Assembly: GCA_947501805.1 (NCBI GenBank)
Contig: CANMXJ010000003.1
Location: forward strand, 310,001 to 374,000
DNA: 64,000 nt
Source: an uncultured Sulfitobacter sp.
GTDB lineage: Bacteria > Pseudomonadota > Alphaproteobacteria > Rhodobacterales > Rhodobacteraceae
Direction of reading: 5' to 3'
Shown here: positions 5,514-31,259 of the stretch, piece after piece
How the letters are laid out: each line of letters begins with the position of its first letter
Position numbering within the stretch: the first letter of the stretch is position 1
Translations under genes and position numbers: made by a program
Notes under the pieces: generated by a model
Databases searched by the model: none
What the model saw: the letters and a program-made list of their open reading frames with translations, nothing else
Told to the model about the DNA's origin: nothing

Positions 5514-7552
5514 CGACGACCTTCGCGCAGCCACGCCACTGTGATCAGGGCAACTGACAGAAGCAGGACCAGCCAACCTGGCAGGATTGCAGTTTGCCGG
5601 ATATCACGCGTTTCATAGGCACCACGCGGCGTAATGCCCAGCCAGCCACGTCCTGCAGCGGGTCGTCCGATACGTACATTGCGCAGACGAGGTACGCCTT
5701 CCTCAATCCGTGCGATGCCGCCTCTCAAAGACGTGACAACGGGATCAAGTGCATCACCGCTCGCAATTGTTTCGACAAATTCGCGTGGTGCAGATGGACC
5801 AAGACCGATAACAGTTGATTGATCGCCATTGTCCAAGCGATACAATCCGATCTCTGGCCCCTGATAATTTCCCTCAAAGACACCGGCGGCCCCTTCCAAC
5901 AACGGGAGTTCGGTCACACTGCCATCCGGTGCGGTGATTGTTACGGGCGGGACGGTCTCACCCAAAGTCCGGCGCGTGATCCGCATGGACTGACCTTCGG
6001 CATTTGCGGTCAGGGATTCTTCTTCCAGTTCGGGTTCTTTCATCATCCAGTGGGCAAGCCGGCGCAGTATCTCCAACTGTGGCCCACCGCCTTCATATCC
6101 GCGGCTCCAGAGCCACGCATGATCAGACGCGAGCAAGGCGACGCGCCCTTCATCTACACGGTTCAGCACCAAGAGCGGGCGTCCGTCGATCCCCTCCATC
6201 ACGACATTGCCCTGTGGTTCCGCCACATCTATCTGGCGCAGCCAGCGGCCCCAGTCACCGTTACCGGGCAGGTTTGTCGTGACCGGATGGCGTTCCCCCA
6301 GTTCGGTTACTGCCGGGCTATAGGGGTCTTCGAGAACGCGTGCGGTCGGGGTTGCGGGGATTACAGCCCCTAGAGGCGAGCGGTAAATACTGTCGGCGCT
6401 GGCAAAGTCAGGCCCTGCCGCGACCAGAACAGCACCGCCCTTGCGCACATACTGCGCAACATTGTCGAGATAGAGCGCAGGCAGGATGCCACGGCGCTGA
6501 TAGCGATCAAAAATGATCAGATCAAAGTCTTCGATCTTTTCCATGAACAATTCACGGGTCGGAAAGGCGATGAGCGAAAGTTCATTCACAGGCACGCCAT
6601 CCTGCTTTTCCGGTGGCCGCAGGATAGTGAAATGCACGAGATCCACGGAGCTGTCGGATTTGAGCAGATTGCGCCATGTGCGACCACCCGGATGTGGCTC
6701 GCCACTGACAAGTAGCACGCTCAGTCGGTCGCGTACGCCGTTCATTTGGATCACTGCGGCGTTGTTGCGGTCGGTCAATTCGCCCTCGGCCACAGGCAGG
6801 GAAAACCGGATCACATTGCGCCCGCCATGGGGCAGGGTAATCGGCAGCTCAAGATCCTGCCCGATCGGGACGCGGAAGGTCTGGGGGGGCTCTCCGTCGA
6901 TGGATATATCCAGTGGGGCAAGTTCCTGATCTTCGGGTGCTGCGCCCAGATCATCAATGCGCAAGGTCAAAGTTACGGCCTCACCAATGATTGCAAAAGC
7001 GGGCGCATTGCGCACGGTCAGACGGCGGTCCCAATCCGTTTCCTTGCCCGTTATCACCAGATGCATCGGCGCGGGTAAATCAATCGGCAGATCACCATCG
7101 TGGACACGACCGTCACTAATCGCAAGGATGCCTGCGATCCGTGCGCGCGGTTCCTCGGCCAGCGCATCAGTGATGGCAGTCATGATTTGCGTGCCAGCAT
7201 CGCCCGCGCCATCTGGAACACTGATGCGGCGCAGTTCGGTGTTCGGTCGGGCTGTAATTTGCGCGGCCAGTGTATCCGCTGCTTGCTTGGTTTGATCGGG
7301 GCGCTCGCCAAGCCTTTGACTCGCACTTTCATCCTCGATGAGCAGCACGATATCACTCAGCGGTGCACGATCTTCTTGTTGGTAGGACGGATTGGCCAGC
7401 GCGCCCAAGACAACCGCAGCCGCCAGCCCCCGCAATGGCCAACCATTCAGGCCGCGCAGGATCGCCAGAATCAAGCCAAGCAATGCAATAATCGCGACAA
7501 CAATCAGCAGTGAAACGGGGATCAGCGGATCATAAACAATCGTTGCGGTCAT
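5510..7552 (-). CDS. Large membrane protein with VWA-like and glutamine-amidotransferase-like domains
   Basis: This 680-residue protein has two N-terminal membrane helices (about residues 10-30 and 38-54) and one at the C-terminus (LPGWLVLLLSVALITVAW). Between them lies a VWA-like segment (DIVLLIEDESAS at about residue 66) and a class-I glutamine-amidotransferase-like fold around DLIIFDRYQRRG and GGAVLVAAGPDF. I see no Cys-His-Glu triad, so it is probably a non-catalytic fold. It is the last gene of the MoxR-DUF58-DUF4159 operon and overlaps the preceding gene by 4 nt (ATGA). By analogy to Bat operons it would act at the membrane with a MoxR chaperone. That role is inference. Confidence 0.8.
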   Translation of the reverse strand: MTATIVYDPLIPVSLLIVVAIIALLGLILAILRGLNGWPLRGLAAAVVLGALANPSYQQEDRAPLSDIVLLIEDESASQRLGERPDQTKQAADTLAAQITARPNTELRRISVPDGAGDAGTQIMTAITDALAEEPRARIAGILAISDGRVHDGDLPIDLPAPMHLVITGKETDWDRRLTVRNAPAFAIIGEAVTLTLRIDDLGAAPEDQELAPLDISIDGEPPQTFRVPIGQDLELPITLPHGGRNVIRFSLPVAEGELTDRNNAAVIQMNGVRDRLSVLLVSGEPHPGGRTWRNLLKSDSSVDLVHFTILRPPEKQDGVPVNELSLIAFPTRELFMEKIEDFDLIIFDRYQRRGILPALYLDNVAQYVRKGGAVLVAAGPDFASADSIYRSPLGAVIPATPTARVLEDPYSPAVTELGERHPVTTNLPGNGDWGRWLRQIDVAEPQGNVVMEGIDGRPLLVLNRVDEGRVALLASDHAWLWSRGYEGGGPQLEILRRLAHWMMKEPELEEESLTANAEGQSMRITRRTLGETVPPVTITAPDGSVTELPLLEGAAGVFEGNYQGPEIGLYRLDNGDQSTVIGLGPSAPREFVETIASGDALDPVVTSLRGGIARIEEGVPRLRNVRIGRPAAGRGWLGITPRGAYETRDIRQTAILPGWLVLLLSVALITVAWLREGRR

Positions 7553-10320
7553 TGGCCCAACCTATCCAGAAGGGCAGGCACATGAACCTGATCCGACTTA
7601 TAATTCCCTGTCAGCACATGCATGATCAGGTTCACGCCAAAGCGGTTCGCAAGTTCGCGCTGTCGGTCGCCCGCGTATCCCCGCCCTATAGGCAGCAAAG
7701 GCGCGCCGTCACTGCGCGTGGCCCAGGCGGCGGCCCAATCATTGCCGCCAATCACAACGGGTGTGACCCCGTCATTGAGGTTTCGAAACGGCATGCCTTC
7801 GATCTTTTCGGCGTTGGGTGGCGCGGCTTCGATCCAGACTTCGCGGCTGTTATACCGTCCCGGAAAGTCCTGCAGCAGATAAAAGGTGCGCGTCAACACA
7901 TGGTCGCTTGGCAACGGTTCCAACGGCGGAATGTCCAAAGGGGCAGCGATATCGCGTAGTTTGGCACCATTCGGGCTGGACGCGCCATAGCTGGCCGTGT
8001 CGGCATCGCGAGTGTCAAAAAGGATCAAACCGCCGGACCGCAGGTATTCATTCAACTTGGTATACGCCTCTGAGGACGGGCGTGGCTGGTCCGGCGTAAT
8101 CGGCCAATAGAGGATGGGAAAGAACGCGAGTTCGTCGGTTTCAAGATCAACAGCTGTGGCTGGTGCAGGTTCGATCGAGGTGCGGAAAAACAGGATATCG
8201 GAGAGACCCTGCAGGCCAGCGGCGGCGATTTCATCGACACCCGGATTGCCCGTAATGACATGGGCCAATGACACGTCTGCTGTCGCAGCAAGTGCGAAAT
8301 CGTCTGCTTCGGTTTGGGCGTCTGCTGGCAAGGCTAAGCTGATAAAAGGCACCGCCAGAACTTTCAAAAGGGTGGCGTTGCTTCGTTGTAAGAGCCGCCC
8401 GGAAAGCGCGAGAGAGGCCACAACATCAACCAACAGCAACAGGATCGAAAGGCTGAGCAACCATCCCGCCACGGGCTGTTCAGGGGCGACAGCAAGGCCG
8501 CGCACCGGGATGTTCGAAGGCCAGCTTGCGGGTGTGAGGGTTGCATCCGTACCAAAGACGTTGCGCGCCAAACGGCGCTCTGCGCTGCTGTATATGCCGG
8601 GTTGCAAGGCTGGACCAGCAGCAGATGAAAGCAAGTCGGCCCCATCCACACCGGGCAGATTGCCCGCGTCCGACAGTACCCCGTAACCGTCCATCACGCG
8701 CTGCGGTGTCCATGTTGTGCCCGCCAGATCACCGGGTTCAGGTGAGGCTGCGGTAGAGGATACGGCAAGCCGCTCCAGCATTTCCACAAACAGTCCGGAC
8801 AGCGGTAATGTAGACCATTCCGCTGTTGCTGTGACGTGAAACAGGACAATCTGGCCTTGGCCAACAACCTTGCGCGTCACCAGCGGGGTACCATCGCTGA
8901 GGGATGCAATCACGCGGTCTGCCAGCGTCGGATCGGGTTGCGCGACGACCTGGGCTGAGACAACCACATCATCTGGCACACCTAGGCCAAAGAACGGCGA
9001 GGTATCCCTGAAAGGCGCGAGCGATTTCGGCTCGCCCCAAGACATCGCGCCCCCAACGCTGCGGCCACCGGCACGCAGACGCACAGGCATCAGCGGATCT
9101 TCGTCAAAGCGGCTGACATCGCTGGCCGCAATACGTGGCCCTGCAAAACGCACCAACATGCCGCCTTGGGCGATCCATTCGAGCAGTGGTTCTGCTTCTG
9201 CGTCGGCCAAAGTTGCTACATCCGCAAGAACAATCACATCCGGGTTGGCAGGCAGCACGTCCGTGATAGATCCGTCAATCAGGTCTGCTGTCGGGGCCAA
9301 AGCCTGTTCGATGTAATGCAACGGGGAAAGCAGTTGCAGTCCTTCGCGATCACTATCCGATCCGATCAAGGCAACCTCGCGGCGGCGCAGCGCATCATCA
9401 ACCAAAGAAACCGCACCGGCGGAACGCTGCCCTGCAATCGTGAACCCCGTGATGCGGGCGCGCAGCTCAGAGGGCAGAGAAAGTTCGGTTGTTGCAGTGG
9501 TCTCGCTTGCATCAAAGGTGGCAACCGAAGTGGCAAGGATACGTGCATTGCCTGCGGGATCACGCCCTTCGGCCCGGATCACCACTTCGCGTTCCAAACC
9601 GCTGGCGGCGCGTGCCACGCTAAGTTTCACCACGGCGTCTTCGTATTTAGCGGGGGCGATGGCCAGCACGTTTGCGGCAGTTTGATAGACTTCGACGCTG
9701 CCACGGGATTGCAAGGTATCCAAAATGGTATCGCGCCCCTCATACTCAAGCGCATCGCTGAACCAAAGTGTGTCAAAGGCGGGCAAATCGCGCATGATCT
9801 CGGCCGCTTTGGCGATGTTCTCGGCGGAAGGCTGCCAAGGTGCGGGCGTAAATCCGGCCAGACGCGAACGCCAGACATCTGCGGTCTGGAACGCGGGCGC
9901 ATCAGGTCGGCTAAGGGCGAGGAAACCAACGGGCCGTTCCGCACGGCCTGCGCGGGTCAATTGTGCTTCGATCGCCGCAGTCTGTTCGGGCCAGCGGGTT
10001 GCGCCAGCCCATGTGCCATCAAGTACAATCAACAAGGGGCCGTCGCCGGACGCTTGATCCACCTCGGGGTTCAGGACCGGACCGGCCAGCCCCAGAATGA
10101 TCGCGGCAACAGCCAACATGCGCAGCAACAACAGCCACCACGGGGTTCGATCCGAAACGGTCTCGTCATCTGAAAGACCCAGCAAAAGCGCAACACCTGG
10201 GAAGCGGCGGCGGATCGGAGCGGGTGGCACAGCGCGCAGGATGAGCCACAGGATCGGCAAGGCCAACAGAGCGAACAGCAACCAAGGAGCGGTGAAGCCT
10301 ATGCCGCCGAGAACCGTCAT
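7549..10320 (-). CDS. DUF4159 protein with N-terminal BatA domain
   Basis: This 923-residue membrane protein opens with the BatA/aerotolerance N-terminal domain (about residues 1-80, with helices FTAPWLLFALLALPILWLIL and WWLLLLRMLAVAAIILGL). A long extracytoplasmic region with VWA-like features follows. Further membrane helices lie near residue 620-660 (LLSLSILLLLVDVVASLAL). A DUF4159 domain covers roughly the last 220 residues (DELAFFPILYWPITPDQP, GGLILFDTRDAD). Its start overlaps the stop of the DUF58 gene by 4 nt. The family is conserved with MoxR and DUF58 genes in Alphaproteobacteria. No enzyme activity is established, and a role in envelope or complex assembly is inferred. Confidence 0.88.
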   Translation of the reverse strand: MTVLGGIGFTAPWLLFALLALPILWLILRAVPPAPIRRRFPGVALLLGLSDDETVSDRTPWWLLLLRMLAVAAIILGLAGPVLNPEVDQASGDGPLLIVLDGTWAGATRWPEQTAAIEAQLTRAGRAERPVGFLALSRPDAPAFQTADVWRSRLAGFTPAPWQPSAENIAKAAEIMRDLPAFDTLWFSDALEYEGRDTILDTLQSRGSVEVYQTAANVLAIAPAKYEDAVVKLSVARAASGLEREVVIRAEGRDPAGNARILATSVATFDASETTATTELSLPSELRARITGFTIAGQRSAGAVSLVDDALRRREVALIGSDSDREGLQLLSPLHYIEQALAPTADLIDGSITDVLPANPDVIVLADVATLADAEAEPLLEWIAQGGMLVRFAGPRIAASDVSRFDEDPLMPVRLRAGGRSVGGAMSWGEPKSLAPFRDTSPFFGLGVPDDVVVSAQVVAQPDPTLADRVIASLSDGTPLVTRKVVGQGQIVLFHVTATAEWSTLPLSGLFVEMLERLAVSSTAASPEPGDLAGTTWTPQRVMDGYGVLSDAGNLPGVDGADLLSSAAGPALQPGIYSSAERRLARNVFGTDATLTPASWPSNIPVRGLAVAPEQPVAGWLLSLSILLLLVDVVASLALSGRLLQRSNATLLKVLAVPFISLALPADAQTEADDFALAATADVSLAHVITGNPGVDEIAAAGLQGLSDILFFRTSIEPAPATAVDLETDELAFFPILYWPITPDQPRPSSEAYTKLNEYLRSGGLILFDTRDADTASYGASSPNGAKLRDIAAPLDIPPLEPLPSDHVLTRTFYLLQDFPGRYNSREVWIEAAPPNAEKIEGMPFRNLNDGVTPVVIGGNDWAAAWATRSDGAPLLPIGRGYAGDRQRELANRFGVNLIMHVLTGNYKSDQVHVPALLDRLGQ

Positions 10321-27255: not shown

Positions 27256-30200
27256 ATGGAACGCAGCATTTTTTCGTTCATTTGGAAATATTCCAAACGA
27301 GAGCAAATCTATTTGCTGGTGTTCACGCTGTTCACCTTTCCGTTTCTGTACGCCACGTTGGAGCTGCCCAAGCGGATCATCAACGACGCAATCGGGGCGC
27401 AGGCGGATATCATAAATGTGTTTGGCTATCAGATAAGCCAGGTGCAATTCCTGATGCTCCTGTGTTTTGGATACCTCGCAGCGGTGCTGGTTCATGGCTT
27501 GCTCAAGATGCGGCTGAACACGATGAAGGGTGTTTTGTCCGAACGCATGCTGCGCCGCTTTCGCTATATGCTGGTGAACCGCATGATGCGGTTTCCGCGT
27601 AGCTATTTCGAAAAGACGTCACAGGGTGAACTGGTCAGCATGGTCACCTCCGAAGCCGAGCCGATGGGTGGCTTGATGGGGGACGCAGTTGCGCAGCCTG
27701 TTTTTCAGGCAGGCCAGATGCTGGTGATTGTGGTGTTCCTGTTTCTTCAATCGTTCTGGTTTGGGGTGGCTGGTGTCGCGCTGATCCCGTTGCAGGCGTG
27801 GCTCATTCCCTTGCTGCAACGCCAGATTAACCTGTTGAACAAGGAACGGATCAAGGAAATCCGTCACTTTGCCGCCGAAATTGGTGAAACAGCTGCAGGG
27901 ATCACCGATCTGCGCACCAATGGCGGTTGGCGGTTCCAGCTTGCAAGATTTACGGACCGTTTGGGGCGGCTGTTCGAGGTGCGGTTCCGTATCTATCAAA
28001 AGAAGTTCTTTATGAAGTTTCTGAACAACTTCATCACACAACTGACACCGTTTTTCTTTTATGCTGTTGGCGGTTATCTGGCGATCAAGGGCGAGATTAC
28101 AGTTGGCGCGCTGGTCGCGGCATTGGCTGCCTACAAGGACCTGAGCAATCCGTGGAAAGAGTTGTTGGCCTATTACAACCAGACGCAGGACATGGCGTTG
28201 CGCTGGGACGTGGTCACGGAACGCTTTGCGCCCAAGAACATGATCGCAGAGTCATTGTTCACTGGCACACCTGACGAAATCCCGCATCTTCGCGGTGATA
28301 TCGTATTGCGAAATGTTTCGGTGCGGGCGGGGAATGGGGACATGATCCTTAGCGATCTGTCACTGGACATTCCCGCCGGCAGTCAGGTTGCATTCGAGGT
28401 GGGCACCCAGTCGGAGCGTACGGCGCTGGCCGAACTGCTGACGCGGGAAATAAACCCGACGCGTGGCAAGGTCGAGATTGCGGGCCGTAATCTGGCGGGG
28501 CTGCATCAGGCGGTGGTGGCTGCCCGCATCGGTTATGCACAGGCGCAGCCCTATCTGTTTCAGGGCAACATCGGGGACAACTTGTTGATGCCGTTGCGCA
28601 CCAGCCCGAAAACCGTTTTGTGGGATCCGCAACACAGTGACCGCTCCACCATAGAAGCGCGGCGCAGTGGCAACAGTCCTGACAGTACACGGGCCGATTG
28701 GCTTGATCCGGGAATAGCACAGCTGAACACCCGCGAGGATGTGCACAAATTCTGGTTCGAGATCACCGAGGCGCTGGGAACGGCAGACATAATATTTGAA
28801 GCCATGCTGGATGCGCGCATGGACCCCGAACGCAATCCAGAGCTGGCTCGGCGCATTGTTGGGTTGCGCGATGAGGTGTACGAGCGGATAAAGTCGGAAG
28901 GGCTGGAGGGTGGTTATTACCGTTTCGACCCTGACCAGTTCAACCCGGCTATGCCTGTCGGCGGAAACCTGATTTTTGCCTCCCCCAAGCAGGACATTAC
29001 ACAGGAGGGCTTGGTCGAGCAGCGCAGCTTTCTGGCCATGGTCATGGATCAGGGACTGGCCGAACAGGGCATCGCGATTTCGCAAACACTTGTGGAAACG
29101 CTGCACCAGACTTTCGGGTCCGACGGGACAGATCACCCTTTATTCACGGCCCTCGGCATCGAAGAGACGCTGTATGAGCAGCTGACTGATATTGCAGCGC
29201 GTCGCAAGGAACACGGGGATCAGGCGTTGTCCTCCGAAGAATTTGCGTTGTTGCTGACAGTACCCTTTGCCCTGACTGCCGAACAATTCGGCCCGTCTTT
29301 TCCCGAAAGCTTCAAGCGGGAAATTCTGCGTGTCCGTAAAACCCAAGGCCAGCAATTGCAAGAGCAGGCACTTGACCTGTTTATGCCGATTGAGCCGGAA
29401 AACTATCTGCCTCGCCTGACACTGCTGGAAAACCTGCTTTATGGCCGTTTATCGAGCATGGCTGGATTGCAGGCAGACCTGTTGCGCGATATGGTATCGG
29501 AAGTGCTGGTCAAACACGATCTTAAGCGGCTGATTTCGATTAACCTTTTCGACGTGCCAACCGCGATCGGCGGCACCAACCTGCCTGCGGTCTTTCAACA
29601 GCGTGCTGCCTTTGGACGTGCTGCGATCAAGCGGCCAGATGTCTTGGTTCTCAATCAGTCGTTGGCAGGGCAAAGCGCAGATGTGCAAAAACAGATTCGC
29701 CATAACCTTAGCGCGTTACTGCCGCAGACGACGCAGATTTACATCAACGACAGGTTCGCCAATCCCGACGATTTTGATCTGCACATCGAGATCAAGAATG
29801 GTCGTGTCAAAGGTGTCGAAAAGTCAGAACTCCTTGAAGAAGAAGGGGCCACTTCTGATGATCTGCGCAGCAAACTGCGCATCATCTCAAGCAACGCGCT
29901 TTTTGCATCTCTTGACGGGCGTAACCAACGTCTGCTGGCGTTTGCAGCGCAGTGGTACACAGCGGCCGCAGGACAGCGCATCTTTACGGCTGGCGAACGG
30001 CCGGATGCGGCGTATCTCTGTCTGTCGGGGCATGCCGAACTGGGCAACCATACAGAAGACGGCATTTATCGTCACGTCTCCGATGTTGCGCCTGGCCGCT
30101 TGATCGGTGATTTGGCGATTATTCTGGATGAGCCGCGCCAACTGGATCTGACCGCCACCGAAGAGGTAAAGTTCTTGCGCATCGGAGCCGAGCAATTCTT

Positions 30201-30363
30201 GTCCGTTATCGAAAGCGACAAGGTAGTCTTGCTTAGCCTGTTGCGCACAGTTTCGGGTCATTTGTCAGGGGCTGCGGATCTTTTGATCGAGGCCGGTATC
30301 GAGGTGCCGCCCGAACGCACGCCGCCGTCCCTGCGGGTCAAGCCGGAAGAAGATGTTCCATGA
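27256..30363 (+). CDS. ABC-exporter-like protein with degenerate nucleotide-binding domain and cNMP-binding-like domain
   Basis: This 1035-residue protein starts with a type-I exporter membrane domain (about residues 1-320). A nucleotide-binding fold follows (about 345-445 and 715-855), interrupted by a roughly 270-residue insertion. A cyclic-nucleotide-binding-like domain lies at about 875-1010. Every catalytic motif is altered: Walker A reads GTQSERTA (383-390), the signature reads LPAVF (776-780), Walker B reads VLVLNQ with N800 and Q801, and the switch histidine site is D832. Structural residues such as GGTNL and QQRAAFGRA remain, so the fold is kept without ATPase chemistry. The cNMP domain is also partly changed (GD at 951-952, R961 kept). 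The stop overlaps the CPBP protease gene by 4 nt. The function is not known. Confidence 0.9.
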   Translation: MERSIFSFIWKYSKREQIYLLVFTLFTFPFLYATLELPKRIINDAIGAQADIINVFGYQISQVQFLMLLCFGYLAAVLVHGLLKMRLNTMKGVLSERMLRRFRYMLVNRMMRFPRSYFEKTSQGELVSMVTSEAEPMGGLMGDAVAQPVFQAGQMLVIVVFLFLQSFWFGVAGVALIPLQAWLIPLLQRQINLLNKERIKEIRHFAAEIGETAAGITDLRTNGGWRFQLARFTDRLGRLFEVRFRIYQKKFFMKFLNNFITQLTPFFFYAVGGYLAIKGEITVGALVAALAAYKDLSNPWKELLAYYNQTQDMALRWDVVTERFAPKNMIAESLFTGTPDEIPHLRGDIVLRNVSVRAGNGDMILSDLSLDIPAGSQVAFEVGTQSERTALAELLTREINPTRGKVEIAGRNLAGLHQAVVAARIGYAQAQPYLFQGNIGDNLLMPLRTSPKTVLWDPQHSDRSTIEARRSGNSPDSTRADWLDPGIAQLNTREDVHKFWFEITEALGTADIIFEAMLDARMDPERNPELARRIVGLRDEVYERIKSEGLEGGYYRFDPDQFNPAMPVGGNLIFASPKQDITQEGLVEQRSFLAMVMDQGLAEQGIAISQTLVETLHQTFGSDGTDHPLFTALGIEETLYEQLTDIAARRKEHGDQALSSEEFALLLTVPFALTAEQFGPSFPESFKREILRVRKTQGQQLQEQALDLFMPIEPENYLPRLTLLENLLYGRLSSMAGLQADLLRDMVSEVLVKHDLKRLISINLFDVPTAIGGTNLPAVFQQRAAFGRAAIKRPDVLVLNQSLAGQSADVQKQIRHNLSALLPQTTQIYINDRFANPDDFDLHIEIKNGRVKGVEKSELLEEEGATSDDLRSKLRIISSNALFASLDGRNQRLLAFAAQWYTAAAGQRIFTAGERPDAAYLCLSGHAELGNHTEDGIYRHVSDVAPGRLIGDLAIILDEPRQLDLTATEEVKFLRIGAEQFLSVIESDKVVLLSLLRTVSGHLSGAADLLIEAGIEVPPERTPPSLRVKPEEDVP

Positions 30364-31259
30364 ACTCTCATGCAGCTTATCACGCACATGAAGCGTTTGT
30401 TGCGCCTGCCCGATCCCGTTCATCGCTTTGGCGGTTTGGTGCCGGAATGGTGTTGGCGACATTTGTCTATATCTCACTGAACCAGGTATTCTTTCAAACG
30501 GTCTATGGCATTGCGTTGTCTGGCAATCCTGCCGTTCTTGGGGAAATGGCAACAGGCCGGACGCCGCCTGCAATGTATCTGCTGCTGTTCAGCTTTGTAT
30601 TTATGATCGTCGGAGTAGGGTTAAGCGCGCGGTTGCTCCACCAGCGGTCGGTTCTGTCCTTACTAGGTCCACCAGACGTATTGTTGCATGATTTTCGTGC
30701 AGTTTTCTTGACCGTATTCGGGATCATGGCCGTTGTTTTTGTGCTGCCACCTTGGGGCATGGGCGATGATTTTATCCCGAACATGGCATTGGGGACCTGG
30801 CTTGCCTTGCTGATTCCGTCACTGGGTTTCATCCTTATTCAGGTCAGCGCCGAAGAAATCGTGTTTCGCGGCTATGTCCAGCAACAACTTGCGGCGCGGT
30901 TCCGCTCTCCGTTGATCTGGATGGTTCTGCCTTCTGTATTGTTTGCAGTTGGTCACTATCTTCCGGACATAGCCGGTGATAATGCGCTGATGATTGCGGT
31001 TTGGGCGGGTGTGTTTGGCATCCTGATGGCCGATCTGACAGCCCGGTCAGGGTCACTTGGTCCTGCCATTGCCGTGCACTTTCTTAATAATGTATCCGCA
31101 ATGATGATTATTTCGCTGCCCGACGACCTCTCCGGGCTTGCGCTTTATCTGACGCCGTTTGGTGTCGACGATACTGATATGCTGCGCGCTTGGTTGCCGG
31201 TAGACTTTGCGATGATGCTGGTCTTGTGGCTCGGCGCGCGCCTTGCCATCAGGCGCTGA
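30360..31259 (+). CDS. CPBP family intramembrane metalloprotease
   Basis: This 299-residue polytopic membrane protein has the CPBP (Abi/CAAX-protease-like) motifs: EEIVFRG with E165, E166 and R170; FAVGH with H199; and HFLNN with H240 and N244. These residues form the glutamate/histidine metal site of this family, so it should be an active intramembrane protease. Eight or so membrane segments are seen. The ATGA overlap with the ABC-like gene upstream points to a fixed partnership. In other bacteria such proteases process peptides or defend against bacteriocins; the substrate here is unknown. Confidence 0.92.

Follow-up and report, generated by a model that had tools for sequence, protein, structure and literature searches.

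According to ATP-binding cassette (ABC) biochemistry, nucleotide-binding domains (NBDs) without the Walker A lysine, the signature, and the catalytic residues cannot form the usual ATP sandwich. In some heterodimeric exporters one ATP site is degenerate, and the degenerate subunit of known heterodimers usually retains part of each motif. Here we describe a pseudo-ABC exporter (pABC) encoded in a 64,000-nucleotide stretch of contig CANMXJ010000003.1 from an uncultured Sulfitobacter sp. (the window); the protein keeps the exporter fold, has lost every ATPase motif, and carries a C-terminal cyclic-nucleotide-binding (CNB) domain. PMC13316013 describes SbmA as an ABC-like transmembrane domain (TMD) able to transport without ATP. 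For the cyanobacterial protein HetC, the abstract of PMC10986499 names both an ABC transporter and a cyclic nucleotide-binding domain, and HetC is listed as a peptidase-based exporter. The Sinorhizobium meliloti exporter MsbA2 (SMb21191) is placed in a glycosyltransferase operon on pSymB by PMC3687685. MsbA2 was considered as a characterized member of the present family and rejected: the open reading frame (ORF) at its place, identified by position in a record without a gene table, contains an intact Walker A, GRSGAGKT, and is separated by about 97 kb from the family member of strain 2011 (pSymB 841688-844438). The first-pass annotation of the window, made from sequence alone, knew of no characterized member, and we likewise found no description of the family in Creative Commons-licensed PubMed Central papers.

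The gene and its membrane part lie at the following positions.
27256..30363 (+), pseudo-ABC exporter with CNB domain, 1035 amino acids
27256..28245 (+), exporter-type TMD, residues 1 to 330 (Pfam ABC_membrane, AlphaFold2 [AF2], conservation)
The frame, called open in the first pass, runs uninterrupted from ATG to TGA, and the exporter fold proposed in the first pass was borne out by Pfam, phmmer, AF2, and Foldseek. Pfam ABC_membrane matched residues 54 to 291 with 77 bits; ABC_tran scored 17.8 bits, below its cut-off of 25, with coverage limited to the N-terminal NBD half, residues 365 to 460. Comparison with the PDB by phmmer matched ABC exporters over the TMD and the N-terminal half of the NBD (E values of 2e-24 to 1e-15 among the best 60 of 229 matches). 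The AF2 model of the whole protein, built from 55 sequences, had a pLDDT of 80.8 and a pTM of 0.65; that of the soluble part, from 56 sequences, had values of 86.0 and 0.67. Foldseek matched the whole chain to ABC exporters with E values of 2e-17 to 1e-14 among the best 50 listed, and the soluble part to exporters, cAMP-binding proteins, and the NBD of ComA. The latter match spanned 531 alignment columns against a 240-residue target, as a long insertion would produce. The TMD and NBD fold of an active ABC exporter is thus present, with low whole-chain TM-scores and a TMt of 0.74 for the NBD alone (ComA match). We found no specific family model; the best 25 NCBIfam matches per protein were all far below their cut-offs, and Pfam gave general domains only. 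The fold is not new, and the protein belongs among the ABC exporters as a variant.

The catalytic positions within this fold are occupied as follows.
28399..28422 (+), Walker A remnant VGTQSERT, residues 382 to 389 (alignment with canonical exporters)
28543..28545 (+), Q-loop position, A430 in place of Gln (alignment)
29581..29595 (+), signature remnant LPAVF, residues 776 to 780 (alignment with canonical exporters)
29641..29658 (+), Walker B remnant VLVLNQ, residues 796 to 801, including N800 and Q801 (alignment with canonical exporters)
29749..29751 (+), switch-histidine position, D832 (alignment with canonical exporters)
As controls, the same alignment held 12 canonical exporters (L201 to L212) from genomes of the relatives set, and Walker A, LSGGQ, the DE pair, the switch His, and the Q-loop Gln were intact in 12/12. 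The earlier claim that all ATPase motifs are altered was confirmed, and its readings of N800, Q801, D832, and LPAVF were correct. The loss of Walker A is real, although the string reported for it, GTQSERTA, was shifted by one residue; GGTNL and QQRAAFGRA, cited as retained structural residues, are present but merely surround the lost LSGGQ.

A motif census established that the losses are conserved, which answers the homologue comparison proposed in the first pass. It covered 247 nonredundant members of 253, one per locus, with TMD-only and short sequences excluded beforehand. Members were divided into two types according to their locus numbers, which follow identity to the window, and the types do not represent a tested clade; the tree was read by leaf order alone, without support values. 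The window type (n = 107, 71 from named genomes, the window protein and paralogues included) comprises Rhodobacterales in several paralogous clades together with Moritella, Granulosicoccus, and Chromatiales records. In this type Walker A (GxxxxGK[ST]), an LSGGQ-like signature, the Walker B Glu, the DE pair, the switch His, and the Q-loop Gln were each present in 0/107, and the Walker B Asp alone in 59/107. Because every catalytic motif is lost and the loss is conserved, there are good sequence grounds for the view that the protein is no ATP-driven pump. Judged from these alignments, loss of ATPase activity in the window-type proteins is well supported, and we infer that they do not hydrolyze ATP.

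These counts bear on the idea that pABC is the noncatalytic half of a heterodimeric ABC exporter whose ATPase is an unlinked canonical subunit. TmrAB and TM287/288, heterodimers with one degenerate ATP site, were among the Foldseek matches, and the window's genome encodes a canonical exporter (L201, from G000). However, no motif is intact here, unlike in the usual degenerate subunits, and no neighbor is annotated as an exporter in the gene tables compared, which are incomplete and whose ABC genes are annotated as importer parts or left unspecified. We regard such a pairing as very unlikely.

Members of the wider alphaproteobacterial type (n = 140) are only partly eroded. Walker A is intact in 8 and an LSGGQ-like signature in 9 (exact LSGGQ in 0); Walker B retains Asp in 22, Glu in 71, and both in 7; His is kept in 41 and the Q-loop Gln in 24. 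All five motifs (Walker A, signature, Asp, Glu, and His) occur together in a single member, L269 of genome G281, which reads GDGNSGKT, LSGAQ, DE, and H. The first-pass annotation had reasoned that homologues with intact motifs would make the window gene an isolated broken copy. Such homologues exist in part, but L269 together with the 8/140 intact Walker A sequences suggests an active ancestor instead, and one fully intact member in 247 is too few to call the others broken. L269 (positions 6055-8751, minus strand), the sole intact member, lies within the same glycosyltransferase/CNB cluster as its relatives and, by its sequence, is possibly a natural, active counterpart of the eroded members. 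The Walker A Ser/Thr is replaced by Asp or Glu in 111/140 wider members and the Walker B Asp mostly by Asn or Ser, so that both Mg2+ ligands are changed. The acid looks as if it had moved across the Mg2+ site, Walker A gaining what Walker B gave up. In this group a retained Walker A Ser/Thr was associated with the Walker B Asp (6/10 versus 10/111; Fisher P = 3e-4, uncorrected for relatedness).

The family is widespread, and the distribution rules out an isolated broken copy. Full-length orthologues with 66 to 79% identity occur in 28/35 same-genus genomes; the copy in G034 is reported to contain a single in-frame TGA, G005 holds a gene piece at a contig end, and the six remaining genomes hold more distant members or pieces only. 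Paralogues of about 50% identity are found in many of the same-genus genomes. Of the 60 related genomes, 51 gave some match at E <= 1e-10, in many cases to canonical exporters alone. Searching the genome contigs yielded 318 stretches with similar coding (tblastn, E <= 1e-3), of which 80 were kept; 79/80 kept loci from named genomes have a frame of at least 1000 amino acids, and the remaining one is cut by a contig end. Loss of every catalytic motif could be taken as the mark of a decaying pseudogene, but these frames, the residues invariant across the 55 A1 sequences, and the intact CNB site make that explanation untenable. With the L024 protein as the query, 131/385 genomes of a class sample matched at E <= 1e-60. 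A phylum sample gave 32/398 at E <= 1e-50, including one outside the class that matched over the TMD only, and 344/72,556 plasmid records matched at E <= 1e-30 (Rhizobium 144, Sinorhizobium 80), with 202 covering at least 80% of the query. Some family genes carry the public annotation "ABC transporter ATP-binding protein," which is misleading for this family.

The CNB domain, the insertion, and the overlapping protease gene described below had gone unremarked in the first pass.
29857..30285 (+), CNB domain, residues 868 to 1010 (Pfam PF00027, 2.6e-13; Foldseek to cyclic-nucleotide-binding proteins)
30109..30138 (+), phosphate-binding cassette DLAIILDEPR, with D952 and R961 (invariance)
PF00027 (cNMP_binding) matched residues 904 to 988 with 50.2 bits against a cut-off of 27.5, and score and fold agree on the assignment. 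D952 and R961 are each invariant in 55/55 sequences, the usual Glu being Asp in the window's clade. Among 114 CNB matches drawn from four plasmid loci and the loci of the wider family, the acid is Glu in 109, Asp in 3, and Met in 2, and the Arg is present in 114/114. Set against the motif census, these residues indicate that the ATP site was lost while the cyclic-nucleotide site was retained, and the domain probably binds a cyclic nucleotide. The CNB domain is fused to pABC in 60/60 clade A loci (L041 to L100, 60 of the 80 kept). The 118 wider loci, 23 plus 95 fetched stretches from which split or partial class-sample matches were excluded, have it fused in 7, as a separate same-strand gene no more than 1.5 kb downstream in 94, and in neither form in 17. 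A small Brucella CNB protein (PDB 5d1i, 131-residue chain) resembles the separate partner (E values of 3e-21 and 2e-17); although close, the match was not taken as evidence of orthology with the partner.

Two stretches of the membrane part stand out by their conservation.
27598..27690 (+), residues 115 to 145, putative coupling-helix loop (conservation)
27991..28080 (+), family signature KFLNNFITQLTPFFFY region, residues 246 to 275, presumably in transmembrane helix 5 (TM5) (conservation)
In the TMD 139/330 positions are invariant among 55 sequences, with 15/31 in the first stretch and 21/30 in the second. The TMD and the 115-145 loop are the best-conserved parts of the protein, and conservation is higher in the TMD than in the NBD. 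The TM5 pattern K[FL]hNN occurs in 216/247 family members versus 0/12 canonical exporters. Retention of the TMD, both stretches, and the CNB residues fits a TMD still worked from below, by a ligand instead of ATP.

The same conservation pattern would suit an ATP-independent channel or secondary transporter resembling SbmA/BacA, driven by the proton gradient or moving its substrate downhill, with the pseudo-NBD and CNB domain regulatory or structural. SLiPT proteins are presented in PMC13316013 as ABC-exporter-like TMDs working without ATP, and the window's genome holds a TMD-only relative without an NBD (L022:4614-5870, minus strand). However, that paper describes SLiPTs as lacking coupling helices, whereas the putative coupling loop is here among the best-conserved parts. 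Nor is this protein a TMD alone; its pseudo-NBD is full-size by AF2 and Foldseek, as in the other counted members, which were chosen by length, the TMD-only relatives lying outside the count. We consider a transporter of this kind unlikely. The earlier proposal of a scaffold or sensor rather than a pump thus holds insofar as an ATP-driven pump is disfavored and the CNB domain offers a sensor, but it overreaches in denying transport, since an ATP-independent mode of the SbmA kind retains some probability. The TMD-only relative, of 418 to 465 amino acids and without an NBD match, was seen at L022:4614-5870 and L038:3017-4414 (minus strand in both; G000:C19 and G022:C2); it adjoins cupredoxin, multicopper oxidase, cytochrome-like, and outer-membrane-efflux-like genes (by Pfam for L022, by eye for the rest).

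The pseudo-NBD is enlarged by an insertion.
28594..29460 (+), insertion of about 290 amino acids, about residues 447 to 735, between the Q-loop and the signature (profile comparison, AF2)
In the wider family (69 sequences), profile comparison of three successive insertion segments gave probabilities of 97.7, 91.3, and 79.3%, against at most 2.7% for nonrepeat segment pairs and at most 9.0% in 50 column shuffles per pair. The shared unit is an "ENLLFG" turn plus the helices after it, and the NBD helical segment is therefore present three times in the wider family. In the window's own clade the signal is weak (U2-U3 31.6%, U1-U2 and U1-U3 1.0%, with no more than 8.7% reached in 30 column shuffles per pair), so a repeat origin was not accepted there on its own evidence; the insertion may consist of helical-segment copies that are largely eroded. 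In L199 and L200 (G317 and G663), the pseudo-NBD insertion is kept and the transmembrane half falls below the search threshold of the query.

The pABC gene overlaps its downstream neighbor.
30360..31259 (+), CPBP (Rce1-like) intramembrane protease gene, with a 4-base ATGA overlap with the pABC stop (PF02517, 2.2e-17)
The neighbor has EEIVFR, FAVGH, and HFLNN, matching all of what we take to be the CPBP/Rce1-like motifs, EExxxR, FxxxH, and HxxxN. A CPBP-type ORF with a possible start (the first possible start codon being used) between -25 and +20 bases from the pABC stop was present in 61/71 loci, the ATGA overlap being commonest (24). The order ilvD, pABC, CPBP, accD, folC recurs in Rhodobacterales loci, and no CPBP match was found in the clade B loci of the neighborhood comparison.

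The 118 wider loci have different surroundings. Any glycosyltransferase-like gene was present in 87 (GT4-like in 84, GT28-like in 83), a histidine phosphatase in 72, and an S-adenosylmethionine methyltransferase-like gene in 60. In Rhizobium etli CIAT 652, one strand carries an adenylate cyclase, four importer genes, redA, redB, a glycosyltransferase, pABC, and CNB. On pSymB of S. meliloti R28 the order is cyclase, lyase, four importer-type genes, three glycosyltransferases, pABC, CNB, and FkbM, with a methyltransferase on the opposite strand before pABC. A plasmid of Sulfitobacter DSM 110093 carries a nucleotide-sugar dehydrogenase, glycosyltransferases, a phosphatase, a deacetylase, and pABC-CNB, and in Azospirillum lipoferum a fused pABC-CNB precedes four ABC genes of importer type. 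The four genes accompanying the cluster in Rhizobium, Sinorhizobium, and Azospirillum (L213, L214, and L215) are of the peptide-importer type, and the substrate there may be an envelope fragment. The usual glycosyltransferase cluster also occurs in the window's genome, at G000:C15:74842-80961 (L316:8843-14962, by Pfam), adjoined by peptide-importer-like genes (by eye); no pABC match was found in the 20-kb stretch around it.

Both kinds of neighbor would suit a pure scaffold or receptor without transport, that is, a platform dependent on a cyclic nucleotide monophosphate (cNMP) that holds glycosyltransferases in the wider type or presents substrates to the CPBP protease in clade A. The glycosyltransferase clusters and the frequent CPBP-type ORF at the pABC stop support it. 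However, conservation of the TMD as strong as that of residues 246 to 275 suggests more than a platform, and the neighboring CPBP gene could simply reflect synteny, since everything from ilvD to folC recurs; the clade B loci lack the match. We judge a mere platform quite improbable.

Class III cyclase genes were present in 4/8 clade C/D loci and in 9/118 wider loci; from their density in the window's genome, about 0.2 would be expected over the 103.5 kb of the former and about 3 over the 1.58 Mb of the latter. That genome gave 9 cyclase matches over its 4.56 Mb, so a cyclic-nucleotide signal could be present in this organism. Near pABC paralogues, adenylate/guanylate cyclase genes with CHASE2 or HAMP were seen at L029:2357-4234, L037:2807-4525, and L158:7664-9883.

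Taken together, we lean, with slightly less than even confidence, toward pABC being an ATP-independent transport or scaffold protein controlled by a cyclic nucleotide and, in the wider type, serving envelope-glycan assembly. The pseudo-NBD would retain its fold and its contacts with the TMD, and ATP would be neither sandwiched nor hydrolyzed. Instead, the membrane part would be switched by a cyclic nucleotide on the CNB domain, fused here and a separate downstream protein in most wider members. The enlarged helical part of the pseudo-NBD would probably relay the signal from the CNB domain to the transmembrane helices, and these would open, close, or present a binding site. The adjacent glycosyltransferases of the wider family would most likely make the client there, a glycan that is either lipid-linked or periplasmic. 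In the window's Rhodobacterales clade, the gene lies outside a glycan cluster and would be translationally coupled to the CPBP intramembrane protease.

Several observations weigh against this proposal. Relatives supply its links to glycans and to cNMP, since glycosyltransferase-like genes were found in 0/60 clade A loci (fetched flanks) and class III cyclase genes in 0/60 clade A and 0/18 clade B loci (fetched stretches). Some of the 17 wider loci without a fused or adjacent CNB are on short contigs, and nucleotide binding may persist in wider members with GSGK[DE]. The AF2 model covers the monomer only and has low pLDDT at residues 145 to 160, 295 to 308, 854 to 865, and 1020 to 1035. The whole-chain Foldseek scores are low (TMq 0.18 to 0.33, rmsd 14 to 35 A), as the interdomain arrangement of a monomer model would give. 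The proposal stands on sequence and predicted structure.

A bolder version, which we hold as doubtful, is that a motor was swapped for a second-messenger switch. The ATP site would have decayed stepwise, the Mg ligands first and then all motifs, while the CNB protein turned from a fixed partner into, at last, a fused domain. The outcome would be a transporter of exporter fold, gated by cyclic nucleotides, through which alphaproteobacteria control the export of surface glycans. The graded natural series, with one intact member, half-eroded members, and wholly eroded ones, offers a way to ask what an exporter fold does without burning ATP and whether a ligand-sensing domain can replace the motor. 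The recurring glycosyltransferase/CNB neighborhood suggests that rhizobia, roseobacters, and relatives have a surface-glycan pathway controlled by a second messenger.

Compared with the exporters MsbA, PCAT1, TM287/288, and P-glycoprotein, the window protein shares the TMD and NBD fold, lacks Walker A, LSGGQ, the catalytic Glu, the switch His, and the Q-loop Gln, and adds the insertion of about 290 residues and the C-terminal CNB domain. SbmA/BacA (SLiPT), as described in PMC13316013, has no NBD and no coupling helices, whereas the window protein keeps a full pseudo-NBD and a putative coupling loop. HetC, as described in the abstract, resembles it in combining an exporter with a CNB domain, and MsbA2 resembles the wider family in the association of an exporter with glycosyltransferase genes. 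With SthK, MloK1/Mll3241, and the regulatory domains of PKA/PKG, it shares the CNB fold, including the acidic residue and the Arg in the phosphate-binding cassette; unlike these, it has no channel pore or kinase, and its membrane part is an exporter TMD.

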